64,000 nt of DNA, taken from contig JACRBT010000002.1 in NCBI GenBank assembly GCA_016234445.1, positions 186,001 through 250,000 of the forward strand, read 5' to 3'. How positions within the stretch are numbered: position 1 is the first letter of the stretch; every line of letters begins with the position of its first letter. The notes beneath the pieces are model-generated. The model searched no databases, was not told the DNA's origin, and saw only the letters and a program-made list of their open reading frames with translations. This document shows, in pieces, positions 4,507 to 57,236 of the stretch. Made by a program: the position numbers and the translations under genes. This stretch comes from Chloroflexota bacterium. Lineage in GTDB: Bacteria > Chloroflexota > Dehalococcoidia > Tepidiformales > Tepidiformaceae.

Positions 4507-4512
4507 TATACT
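4507..4512 (+). promoter_or_regulatory. -10 element of ssrA
   Basis: TATACT within GTGCTATACTGG, 37 bases before the mature tmRNA 5' end. No good -35 is visible (CTGACG at 4482-4487 has 19-base spacing). Between -10 and the mature RNA, GGCGCC at 4521-4526 and again at 4537-4542 can form a hairpin in the 5' precursor, which RNase P would remove. Confidence 0.5.
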
Positions 4513-29390: not shown

Positions 29391-29515
29391 AGGGGGATTT
29401 CTCCGGGAGACAACGGTTCTCCGCGGGGGAGCAACCGGTTCGCTTTGCCCGAAGTATAGGTGACGCTCCGAAGGCCCGGCAAACCGCGCGGCTCGCCGAG
29501 GCGCCGGGTCCGAGG

Positions 29516-51004: not shown

Positions 51005-51029
51005 ATCCAACACAATGGAGAACGCTCAA

Positions 51030-51563
51030 ATGCTCCAGCTGCAAGTGAAGCCGGGCCCGGTCGCGCTCACCCCTGAAGTCAACGAGTACATCCGCGAACG
51101 GGCCGCCCGCCTGGATTCGTTTTACGACACGATCCTGACCTGCCGGGTCATCCTCGACGCGCCGACGGGCCACCACCGCCAGGGCGGGCCCTTCGAAGTC
51201 CGCATCGACCTGGATGTCCCGGGGAGCGTCCTCGCGGTGACGAAGCAGCGCGCGGACAACCTCCACGTCGCTGTGCGGCAGGCATTCGCCGCCGCCGAAC
51301 GGCGCCTCGAAGACTACGCCCGGAAGCAGCGTGGCGACGTGAAGACGCCGGAGACGCCGCCGCGCGGCAAGATCTCCCGGATCTTCCCGCAGGATGGATA
51401 CGGCTTCATCGCCACCCCTGACGGCCGGGAGGTGTACTTCCACCGCAACAGCGTCCTCGCCGACGGCTTCGACCGCCTCGCCGCCGGCACCGAGGTGCGT
51501 TTCGCCGAGGAAGAGGGAGACAAGGGCCCGCAGGCGAGCACGGTGGCGCCGGCGGGGGACTGA
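51030..51563 (+). CDS. RaiA/HPF-like domain fused to a cold-shock domain
   Basis: 177 aa from ATG 51030 (GGAG nine bases upstream; ATG 51015 lacks a site). Residues about 1-95 match the ribosome hibernation (RaiA/HPF, sigma-54 modulation) fold: LTPEVNEYIRERAARLDSFYDTILTCRVIL and HVAVRQAFAAAERRLEDYARKQ. Residues about 105-170 are a cold-shock domain with the RNP-like GYGFIATPDGREVYFHRNSV. It probably sits on inactive ribosomes and binds single-stranded RNA during stress. Confidence 0.88.
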   Translation: MLQLQVKPGPVALTPEVNEYIRERAARLDSFYDTILTCRVILDAPTGHHRQGGPFEVRIDLDVPGSVLAVTKQRADNLHVAVRQAFAAAERRLEDYARKQRGDVKTPETPPRGKISRIFPQDGYGFIATPDGREVYFHRNSVLADGFDRLAAGTEVRFAEEEGDKGPQASTVAPAGD

Positions 51564-53160: not shown

Positions 53161-53187
53161 TTAGCAGTGTTGACAGGCGAGTGCTAA
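53161..53187 (+). promoter_or_regulatory. CIRCE element (HrcA operator) over a promoter
   Basis: TTAGCAGTG-N9-GAGTGCTAA. The right arm is the perfect consensus and the left arm matches seven of nine positions of TTAGCACTC; spacing is exactly nine. The spacer contains TTGACA (53170-53175), which with TAGAAT (53195-53200) forms a promoter of 19-base spacing, so HrcA binding would block it. The next gene on this strand is the FmdB-type gene at 53248. Confidence 0.85.
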
Positions 53188-53614: not shown

Positions 53615-53642
53615 TTCACGGGCGAACCGGGTTCGCTATATT
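53615..53642 (+). promoter_or_regulatory. Promoter giving a leaderless TetR-TetR mRNA
   Basis: TTCACG (53615-53620) and TATATT (53637-53642), 16 bases apart. The -10 ends seven bases before ATG 53650, so transcription should begin on or next to the start codon; no ribosome binding site is seen. Confidence 0.5.
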
Positions 53643-53649
53643 CGATCAG

Positions 53650-54897
53650 ATGGAAACGGCAACCAGTTACGGAACCACCGGCGCAGCCACCCGGTCCCTG
53701 ATCCTCAGCACCGCACGCGACCTTTTCGCCGAACGTGGGTACAAGGGCACCACGGTCCGCGAAATCGCCAGGCGGTGCCGGATAACGGATCCGGCCCTCT
53801 ATTACCATTTCCGCTCGAAGCAGGACCTCATGCAGGCGGTCCTCGAAGATGCACAGCCCCCGGCAATCGCGTTGGACTTCCGCGCCGCGGGCACTCACCA
53901 GGCAGTCGCCACTTACTTCAACCGGACCTTCCGGTACTGGTCGGACAACCTCGCGACGGGGCGGGCGCTGCTCTTGCGCTCGCTCGACGGCGACCACAAC
54001 GCCACCGGCCAGATCACCCAGATCCGCCAGGGCCTCGATACCTCCGCGCCTGCCCAGCTGGAGGGAGTGTATGGCGCGAACAGCAACCTGGTGGGCCTCG
54101 GGATGCTGGTCCTTGGGGCCGGTCTCTTCATCGGAGAGACGATCCGGGCCACCCGCATCACCGGCCGCAGGGACGACTCCACGGTAACCCGCAGCCGCGT
54201 CTCGGCCGCCGTCGAGATAGGATGCCCGGCCCCGGAGGTCGCGCAGTGGGCGGCGACGGTGCCGCTACCCCCGCGCCATCCCAGGATGGCGCGGCCAATA
54301 CTTCCAACTCCCAGGTCGGGAGCCGAACAGACCAGGCTGAACATCCTGGAGGCTGCGCTCGTGCTCTTTAGCGAGCGCGGTTTCTCAGCGACAACAGTGA
54401 AGTCCATCGCCGCGCGCTGTGGCCTCACCGACGCCGCCCTTTACTACCACTTCCAGTCAAAGGCGGAGATCCTCGAATCGCTCGCCGAACTGCCGCAGTC
54501 CCCGGTGCTGCCGCCAGCCCCCGAGGGGCCCCTGACCCTCGAGTGGTTGGCCCAGCTCATCGACTGCATGCTCGACGCGCTCGAAACCGACCGCGACGCC
54601 ATCCGGCTGGCCCTCCGCCAGATCCTCCAGGGGAACTCGGTGGTGGCTGGCGAACGGTACCTGGTGGCGCGGTCGTGGTGGCAGTCTCTCCTCAGTTCGT
54701 GCGAAGCGACCTACCCGGCGGACCAAGCGCGCGCCCGCGCCGACATTGTCGCGGCCATCCGGATCGGGATCCCCCACACCTTGCTGATCGAGGCCGAGAT
54801 TGGGACACAGACGCTCTCGCTCGATGCCCTGCGCCCCATGCTCCTGCGCGCAGCCGCCGCGCTCCTCCCGGTTGGTGGCGGCCTGAGCGCATCCTGA
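53650..54897 (+). CDS. Tandem TetR-TetR transcription regulator
   Basis: 415 aa. Two complete TetR DNA-binding domains in one chain: residues 16-62 (ILSTARDLFAERGYKGTTVR, ALYYHFRSKQDLM) and 229-277 (ILEAALVLFSERGFSATTVK, ALYYHFQSKAEIL). Each is followed by a helical ligand/dimer region (about 65-185 and 280-410). There is no stop between them; a Met at 213 could start a second product. TetR proteins are normally 190-220 aa dimers, so this chain could act as a pseudo-dimer. Directly followed by dtd. Confidence 0.9.
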   Translation: METATSYGTTGAATRSLILSTARDLFAERGYKGTTVREIARRCRITDPALYYHFRSKQDLMQAVLEDAQPPAIALDFRAAGTHQAVATYFNRTFRYWSDNLATGRALLLRSLDGDHNATGQITQIRQGLDTSAPAQLEGVYGANSNLVGLGMLVLGAGLFIGETIRATRITGRRDDSTVTRSRVSAAVEIGCPAPEVAQWAATVPLPPRHPRMARPILPTPRSGAEQTRLNILEAALVLFSERGFSATTVKSIAARCGLTDAALYYHFQSKAEILESLAELPQSPVLPPAPEGPLTLEWLAQLIDCMLDALETDRDAIRLALRQILQGNSVVAGERYLVARSWWQSLLSSCEATYPADQARARADIVAAIRIGIPHTLLIEAEIGTQTLSLDALRPMLLRAAAALLPVGGGLSAS

Positions 54898-55362
54898 GTG
54901 AGGGTGCTCGTCCAGCGCGTTGCGGTGGCGTCGGTCACGGTTGACGGCGTCATTCGCGGCAGCATCGGCCCGGGCTTCCTCGTCTTCCTCGGCGCCGGCC
55001 AGGGCGACACCTTCGAAACGGCGGCGAAGTGCGCCGCGAAGGTTGCCGGGCTGCGAGTATTCGAAGACGCCGGCGGCAAGATGAACCTCTCTCTGGCCGA
55101 AACCGGCGGCGCGGTGCTCTCCATCAGCCAGTTCACGCTCTACGGCGACCTCCGGCGAGGACGGCGGCCGTCATTCGATGCGGCGGCAGCTCCAGAGGTT
55201 GCCGAGCCGCTCTACGAGGCATTCTGCGCGGGGATCGAGGCAGCCGGAATTCGCTGCGAGCGCGGCGTCTTCGGCGCTCACATGGAGGTCGCGCTCGTGA
55301 ACGACGGGCCGGTCACCATCTGGCTCGACTCGGAAGACCTGGAACACCCTCGCCGCGCTTGA
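54898..55362 (+). CDS. dtd: D-aminoacyl-tRNA deacylase
   Basis: 154 aa. LSISQFTLYGDLRRGRRPSF holds the SQFTL motif and VNDGPVTIWLDS the Gly-cisPro motif of DTD proofreading enzymes. It frees tRNAs wrongly charged with D-amino acids or Gly. GTG 54898 directly follows the TetR stop codon (TGA-GTG), so translation is coupled. ProRS follows. Confidence 0.94.
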   Translation: MRVLVQRVAVASVTVDGVIRGSIGPGFLVFLGAGQGDTFETAAKCAAKVAGLRVFEDAGGKMNLSLAETGGAVLSISQFTLYGDLRRGRRPSFDAAAAPEVAEPLYEAFCAGIEAAGIRCERGVFGAHMEVALVNDGPVTIWLDSEDLEHPRRA

Positions 55363-55420: not shown

Positions 55421-57118
55421 ATGCGGATGAGCAAACTGCTGCTGAAGACCCTGCGCGAAGCGCCGGCCGAGGCAGAGCTGCCCAGCCACAGGCTCCTCCT
55501 CCGGGCTGGCCTCGCGACGCCGCTGGCGGCGGGGCTCTACTGCTTCTCGCCGGTCGGCTGGCGCGTGATCCGCCGGATCGAAACCATCATCCGGGAAGAG
55601 ATGGACCGCAGCGGCGCCCAGGAAGTGCACCTCCCCGCCCTCCACCCGATCGAGCTCTGGGAACAGACGGGCCGCGCGGAGGCGATGGGCCAGACCCTCT
55701 TCCGGCTCGCCGACCGCAAGGAGCGCGGCTTCGCGCTCGGCCCGACGCACGAAGAGGTGATGAGCTTCCTCGCCTCCCGGAGCATCCAGAGCTACCGCGA
55801 CCTGCCGGTCACCCTCTACCAGATCCAGACCAAGTTCCGGGACGAGGCGCGGCCGCGCGGCGGGCTCATCCGCCTCCGCGAATTCACGATGAAGGACGCC
55901 TACAGCTTCGACACCGGCTGGGACACGCTCGATGCGTCCTACGACGCCGCCTTCGCCGCCTACCAGCGCATCTTCGCCCGGGCCGGCGTCCCGGTGATCC
56001 CGGTCGCGGCGGACTCCGGCGCCATCGGCGGCAAGGACAGCCAGGAGTTCATCTTCCTGACCGAAGTCGGCGAAGACGAGATCCTCCTTTGCCCGGGCTG
56101 CGGGTACGCCGCGAACGCGGAGAAAGCCGAATTCCGTGTCCCGCCGCCAGTGGCCGCAGACCCGGCGCCGCTGGAGAAGGTGTCGACTCCCGGTCAGAAG
56201 ACGATTGCCGACCTCGCCTCCTTCCTCGCGATCGAACCCCGCCAGACGTGCAAGGCCGTCTTCTACCGTGTCGACGGAAAGCCCGTCTTCGTCGCCATCC
56301 GCGGCGACCTCGACGTGAACGAAGTGAAGCTGAAGAACGCGCTCAAGGCGAAGGACCTGGAGCCGATGGACGATGCGATGGTCCGCGCCGCCGGGCTCGT
56401 CGCCGGTTCCGCCTCGGCCGTCGGGCTGCGGGGAATGACGATTGTCGCCGACCCAAGCGCCGTCGAGGCCGCGAACCTCGTCGCCGGGGCGAACGAACCG
56501 GACATGCACTATCGGAACACGAACCATGGCCGCGACTGGAAGGCGGACCTGGTCGCGAACATCGCGCTCGCCCGCGGCGGTGACGAGTGCGCGAACTGCG
56601 GCGCCCCGCTCGAGACCCGCCGGGGCATGGAAATGGGCCACGTCTTCAAGCTCGGGACCGTGTATTCCGAGACCATCGGCGTCCAGTACCTGGACGAGGC
56701 CGGCGAGCGCCACCCGGTGGTGATGGGCTGCTACGGGATCGGCGTCGAACGGATGCTGGCGGCCATCATCGAAGCGAACCACGACGAGAACGGCATCACC
56801 TGGCCCGCGGAAGTCTCGCCCTACGATGTCCACATCGTCGCCTTGAACCTGGAACAGGAGCCGGTCACGGCCGCCGTGGCGGAACTCGAAAAGGCGGTCG
56901 AGGCGGCGGGCATGAGCGTGCTCGTGGACGACCGGGCCGACTCCGCCGGGATCAAGTTCAAGGACGCCGACCTCCTCGGCATCCCCGTGCGGCTGACCGT
57001 GAGCCCGCGGGCGATGGAGCGCGGCGGCGTCGAGGTCCGTGAGCGCCACAGCGGCGAGACTTCCGTCGTCGCCCTTGCTGAAGCAGTGGCGAAGGCGAAA
57101 GCGATCCTGGGCAGGTAG
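55421..57118 (+). CDS. proS: Proline-tRNA ligase (bacterial, with editing domain)
   Basis: 565 aa. Class II motifs: GLYCFSPVGWRVIRRIE (1), TKFRDEARPRGGLIRLREF (2) and VVMGCYGIGVERMLAAI (3). The YbaK-like editing insertion lies at about residues 240-390, with the GLRG and CKAVFYRVDGK segments. A C-terminal anticodon domain ends the chain. The second set of Cys (CPGCGYAANAE, CANCGAPLE) resembles zinc-like pairs in many bacterial ProRS. ATG 55421 starts 58 bases after dtd. Confidence 0.95.
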   Translation: MRMSKLLLKTLREAPAEAELPSHRLLLRAGLATPLAAGLYCFSPVGWRVIRRIETIIREEMDRSGAQEVHLPALHPIELWEQTGRAEAMGQTLFRLADRKERGFALGPTHEEVMSFLASRSIQSYRDLPVTLYQIQTKFRDEARPRGGLIRLREFTMKDAYSFDTGWDTLDASYDAAFAAYQRIFARAGVPVIPVAADSGAIGGKDSQEFIFLTEVGEDEILLCPGCGYAANAEKAEFRVPPPVAADPAPLEKVSTPGQKTIADLASFLAIEPRQTCKAVFYRVDGKPVFVAIRGDLDVNEVKLKNALKAKDLEPMDDAMVRAAGLVAGSASAVGLRGMTIVADPSAVEAANLVAGANEPDMHYRNTNHGRDWKADLVANIALARGGDECANCGAPLETRRGMEMGHVFKLGTVYSETIGVQYLDEAGERHPVVMGCYGIGVERMLAAIIEANHDENGITWPAEVSPYDVHIVALNLEQEPVTAAVAELEKAVEAAGMSVLVDDRADSAGIKFKDADLLGIPVRLTVSPRAMERGGVEVRERHSGETSVVALAEAVAKAKAILGR

Positions 57119-57182: not shown

Positions 57183-57188
57183 TATACT
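57183..57188 (+). promoter_or_regulatory. -10 element of the nusA operon
   Basis: TATACT in GTGCTATACTCGC, the same sequence as before ssrA. The -35 region is weak. The predicted start, about 57195, lies just upstream of the terminator hairpin at 57214-57236. Confidence 0.55.
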
Positions 57189-57213: not shown

Positions 57214-57236
57214 GTGGGCTCTCGGCCCACTTTTTT
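57214..57236 (+). terminator. Intrinsic terminator/attenuator in the nusA leader
   Basis: GTGGGC (57214-57219) and GCCCAC (57225-57230) form a perfect six-pair stem with loop TCTCG, followed by TTTTTT. It lies between the only visible promoter and ATG 57247, ten bases before the start. It is placed to end transcription unless read through, the arrangement expected of an attenuator in front of a transcription-termination factor gene. Confidence 0.85.

Follow-up and report, generated by a model that had tools for sequence, protein, structure and literature searches.

Results and discussion

A double TetR regulator lies between fmdB and dtd-proS

The window, a 64,000-nucleotide stretch of a Tepidiformaceae genome, carries a 415-residue reading frame that runs uninterrupted from ATG to TGA at 53650-54897 and encodes two TetR units. 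The gene order is fmdB (zinc ribbon, TIGR02605; at 53248), the double TetR, dtd, proS and nusA, where proS and nusA were named from their translations. The GTG start of dtd comes immediately after the TGA that ends the double TetR frame. The features of the locus are as follows:

53622-53636, no strand assigned: perfect 15-bp palindrome GCGAACCGGGTTCGC, a candidate operator only, abutting the -10 box
53637-53642, forward strand: -10 box TATATT of the putative leaderless promoter, 7 nt before the ATG, conserved in relatives
53650-54897, forward strand: fused double TetR-family regulator, 415 aa (translation, PF00440, AlphaFold, Foldseek)
53701-53841, forward strand: first TetR helix-turn-helix (HTH), the TetR1 half, residues 18-64 (PF00440, genome scan)
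54244-54327, forward strand: linker, roughly residues 199-226, unusual in its synonymous codons (codon score, alignment)
54343-54480, forward strand: second TetR HTH, the TetR2 half (PF00440, genome scan)
54898-55362, forward strand: dtd, D-aminoacyl-tRNA deacylase (PF02580, TIGR00256)
55421-57118, forward strand: proS, name inferred from its translation, its place relative to dtd kept in relatives

The initial annotation had placed two TetR HTHs in this one unbroken frame and a TATATT box seven bases before its ATG, and both statements hold. The Pfam TetR_N profile (PF00440) matched the protein in two stretches, the best being residues 18-64, with a score of 134 bits against the curated cut-off of 24 above which a protein is counted in the TetR family. 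Across the whole genome there were 18 TetR_N matches, two of them in this frame. The TetR1 and TetR2 halves are 50% identical over the 60 residues around the HTH, and BLAST gave no alignment between them outside that stretch. Coding signal extends throughout the frame except in the linker. Two complete HTHs in one unbroken chain of about 400 residues, each followed by a helical core domain (helices are predicted along both halves), place the protein with the double TetR-family regulators of the Mce3R kind. A second assignment, to the ScbR family autoregulator-binding factors (NF041196), was rejected, as the score of 121.6 bits, summed over two stretches, is below the cut-off of 150.

TetR1 and TetR2 occur together and are usually separate genes

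To place the fusion in its family, we mapped the neighbors of fmdB and dtd-proS in 38 genomes, and these flanking genes proved to be conserved. A TetR1-TetR2 pair lies between fmdB and dtd-proS in 21 of them, including G001, where the upstream fmdB match was not found. No family genome has a single TetR at this locus; both genes are present or neither is. In 13 genomes without TetR there, fmdB and dtd are separated by only 3-17 nt, and the rest of the set consists of G004 (dtd at a contig end), G007 and G022 (no dtd match) and G306 (outside the dtd-locus survey).

At 19 of the 21 pair-bearing loci the two regulators are separate genes. They overlap by 4 nt (n=6), 11 nt (n=6), 28 nt (G023) or 1 nt (G002), or are separated by 4-5 nt (G010, G014 and G015), 36 nt (G001) or 55 nt (G016). 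In G001, tetR1 and tetR2 share a reading frame and one TGA stands between them. The fused frame was found at two loci only, that of the window (G000) and that of G013, which belongs to another genus. Uniqueness to one assembly, which the initial annotation had named as fatal to its proposal, is therefore not the case, although the fused form is the minority state. A whole-protein scan of genome contigs found no fused relative, only weak and partial matches to TetRs of unrelated bacteria, and a class-wide search with a TetR2 profile matched many single TetRs.

On a tree of ProS and Dtd, the distribution of the pair needs three changes, and one gain with two losses (G003 and G008) is one reading of these; support is weak for a single origin of the pair. 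The two fusions fall on separate branches, with modest support for the deeper branches and weak support for the exact position of G013, and so independent fusion in the two lineages is likely.

The fusion junction resembles a former gene start

We examined the region where the two halves meet. Homology to TetR1 extends to about residue 193 and homology to TetR2 begins at about residue 221, and Met213 (54286) aligns with the start of the separate TetR2 genes of relatives. In synonymous codon score, codons 199-226 fall below every other 28-codon stretch compared, and none of 2726 such windows in six neighboring genes scored as low. Third-position GC content (GC3) falls to 0.50 in codons 213-226, within the range of separate TetR2 gene starts. 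This composition fits a recently recruited spacer joined to an old gene start that has turned into a linker. No stop occurs in either alternative frame from residue 193 to Met213, and therefore a single indel would not restore the normal two-gene layout. Loss of the stop in a same-frame pair such as that of G001 would suffice for fusion.

We also considered whether a separate protein starts at Met213. The low GC3 fits a former start; however, the ATG at 54286 lacks a Shine-Dalgarno sequence at the usual spacing and no tetR1 stop lies nearby, and for these reasons independent initiation there seems unlikely.

A putative leaderless promoter is conserved at the tetR1 loci

At 20 of the 21 loci, an in-frame tetR1 start is preceded by TATACT or TATATT with a gap of 6-10 nt, while a Shine-Dalgarno-like motif precedes tetR1 at one; the start was picked among in-frame candidates, which favors a match in a few genomes (G001, G013 and G023), but most genomes have only one candidate. 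TATACT is the form at this spacing in 19 of the 20 relatives. Over the 21 homologous segments, 46 kb in total, TATACT, TATAAT and TATATT together occur 20 times on the coding strand, each time at a tetR1 start, and never on the reverse strand. A -10 box at this distance and a missing Shine-Dalgarno sequence are what is expected of a leaderless gene. What had been annotated as apparently leaderless is well supported as a conserved feature of the tetR1 loci, because both box and spacing are kept. Bacterial leaderless genes have a known signature, a TANNNT -10 box some 12 bp ahead of the start codon (PMC3160421). With the same box, the same spacing and no Shine-Dalgarno sequence, the tetR1 loci are an ordinary instance of that class and do not differ from it, but conservation across 20 loci is unusual.

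TATACT also occurs elsewhere in the window, at 4507, 9867, 29793 and 57183 on the forward strand and at 29458 on the reverse strand, and this genome apparently uses it commonly as a strong -10 sequence. In pair-less genomes, dtd lies directly behind fmdB, with a CIRCE-like site upstream of fmdB, and the short gap between the two genes contains no promoter box. Pair-bearing genomes have the TetR pair and its own promoter in that position; therefore, the pair appears to supply dtd-proS with a promoter that came with it.

Operator candidate and recognition helices

The palindrome GCGAACCGGGTTCGC occurs only once in perfect form in the genome, and copies with one mismatch occur at four further places. 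A search of the 20 upstream regions for a palindromic operator gave none that is conserved, GCGAACCGGGTTCGC is absent in relatives, and the relatives' upstream regions have no common motif other than the promoter. Because GCGAACCGGGTTCGC is symmetric, it argues mildly against a model of asymmetric recognition. In the recognition helix, the residue after the invariant Asp is Pro in 18 of 21 TetR1 sequences and Ala in 20 of 21 TetR2 sequences. This residue corresponds to a base-contacting position of TetR. The two different half-site specificities proposed in the initial annotation are only hinted at by this Pro/Ala difference.

TetR1 and TetR2 co-diverge

Pairwise distances among TetR1 proteins correlate with those among TetR2 proteins across 20 genomes (r 0.88). 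The correlation persists in a partial Mantel test given ProS (r 0.757, p 0.0002), while the controls given ProS were 0.03 for TetR1-Dtd and 0.07 for TetR2-Dtd, Dtd being slow-evolving and hence an imperfect control. A mirror-tree correlation can also stem from shared function without contact. By mean distance, no other TetR1 of the set is as diverged as the N half of the fusion (53650-54264); this half has possibly relaxed or adapted after the fusion, or it might be degenerating.

The predicted fold matches Mce3R over its full length

AlphaFold models were built from two alignments: A2 paired the N half with TetR1 rows, and A4 paired the C half with TetR2 rows. A read-through row from G001, with its TGA taken as Trp, was included in both, and only three rows cover both halves. 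The pLDDT and pTM values were 81.6 and 0.77 for A2 and 78.3 and 0.76 for A4. In the better model most blocks have pLDDT above 70, with helices along both halves. When the models were searched against the PDB with Foldseek, the sole match below 1e-3 for both was Mce3R (9b7y_A), over 437 and 448 columns, with E values of 6.7e-7 and 3.9e-6 and TM scores of 0.50-0.56. All further matches listed span one TetR unit. Structure prediction of the monomer, the check suggested with the initial annotation, is in line with a pseudo-dimer.

In Mce3R of Mycobacterium tuberculosis, itself a double TetR, a single chain forms the four-helix core bundle, and the site bound by the two HTHs is not palindromic (PMC11667970). 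The same study describes some 200 predicted double TetRs in actinomycetes, and the architecture itself is already known from this work. Like the protein described here, Mce3R (9b7y) joins two different TetR units with two non-identical HTHs in a single chain of about 400 residues. Mce3R is autoregulated, as is predicted for the 415-residue protein. The two are only 13-15% identical in the structural alignment and differ in neighborhood, as Mce3R belongs with the mce3 lipid-transport operon and the present protein with dtd-proS. Unlike Mce3R, the 415-residue protein has a split pair in its relatives and a leaderless promoter. Ordinary repressors of the TetR/AcrR family (AcrR, RutR and FasR) have the same TetR_N HTH and all-helical core as each half, but these are single units of about 200 residues that act as homodimers, whereas here two paralogues share one chain. 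SAV577/SAV576 are reported to be two adjacent, similar TetR genes that serve one process, and the title and opening of the abstract of that report describe no fusion (PMC4051647). Most of the literature found in searches for TetRs that are fused or form heterodimers was unrelated.

A single-chain heterodimer is the favored interpretation

We consider it probable, with room for doubt, that the frame encodes a TetR heterodimer in a single chain, which regulates its own leaderless promoter and, with it, the downstream dtd-proS. According to this model, two paralogous TetR halves of one polypeptide would pack together, as the predicted structure suggests, and thereby present two non-identical HTHs. 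The double TetR would bind its own promoter and block the leaderless transcript, which would carry dtd and proS along with the regulator's own gene; binding of a small ligand to either core domain, or to both, would release the repressor. The fusion probably arose by loss of the tetR1 stop in an ancestor with same-frame genes, as in G001. The covalent pseudo-dimer of the initial annotation gains support from the fold match to Mce3R, the co-divergence of the adjacent genes and the fusion in two lineages.

We weighed three other explanations. In the first, the fusion would tether homodimers, with TetR1-TetR1 and TetR2-TetR2 pairing between chains and binding two sites. Ordinary TetRs are homodimers, the AlphaFold models have a complete HTH and core helices in both halves, and the perfect palindrome GCGAACCGGGTTCGC beside the -10 box suits a symmetric dimer. 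However, the single-chain pTM is high, the full-length match is to a protein that folds within its chain (PMC11667970), albeit at a TM of only about 0.5, and TetR1 and TetR2 co-diverge; on balance we regard this arrangement as unlikely. Slightly less likely again is a neutral event, in which two functionally separate TetRs of the same operon lost the intervening stop codon with no functional meaning. Fusion in two lineages, a pair that is always together or absent, and strong co-divergence weigh against such an accident, while the rarity of the fused state (2 of 21 genomes), linker codons like those of a recently recruited spacer, and a TGG at codon 200 that a single change would turn into a stop, close to the TetR1 ends of relatives, speak for it. 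Finally, we find it very improbable that an assembly or sequencing error joined two genes, since the two-gene state of 19 of 21 loci and the poor coding score of the linker in the fused frame are countered by the junction, where one indel between residue 193 and Met213 cannot give two genes with a short overlap, by the substitution in the assembled sequence that a stop lost to a base error would require, and by the fusion in G013. As far as the assembly data allow, the fusion is real.

Beyond the single-chain heterodimer itself, we speculate that the widespread two-gene form is an obligate TetR heterodimer on an asymmetric operator, that it was fused at least twice, and that it took control of dtd-proS from the fmdB/CIRCE operon. 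This extended model is possible, though the odds are somewhat against it. If true, the family would offer a natural series from a two-gene heterodimer to an Mce3R-like double repressor.

Double TetR repressors are rare. What is new here is the split-to-fused series, the co-divergence of TetR1 and TetR2 and the rewiring of the operon. One family at one syntenic locus holds the split pair, the same-frame pair with a single stop and two fused forms, and almost all of them share one type of promoter. This makes it testable whether double TetRs descended from heterodimers and whether fusion alters operator symmetry. The insertion of a regulator pair in an operon also appears to have given genes for tRNA proofreading and proline-tRNA synthetase their own promoter.

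Observations on neighboring genes

Upstream of fmdB, a CIRCE-like inverted repeat, TTAGCAGTG-N9-GAGTGCTAA, surrounds a TTGACA at 53161-53187. Among the 34 relatives' loci scanned, 18 have a perfect TTAGCACTC-N9-GAGTGCTAA and most others retain 15-17 of the 18 positions. Because these repeats recur upstream of fmdB across relatives, the gene probably belongs to the HrcA heat-shock regulon in Tepidiformaceae genomes.

The TATACT at 57183-57188 lies 25 nt ahead of the nusA GTG at 57214, and nusA probably has its own promoter inside the block. The proS match of G021 (L045:3231-4872) consists of two pieces in different frames that abut at residue 306, likely a frameshift or assembly error. Further upstream in the window, a single 182-residue frame at 51015-51563 on the forward strand combines a ribosome-hibernation domain (PF02482) with a cold-shock domain (PF00313).
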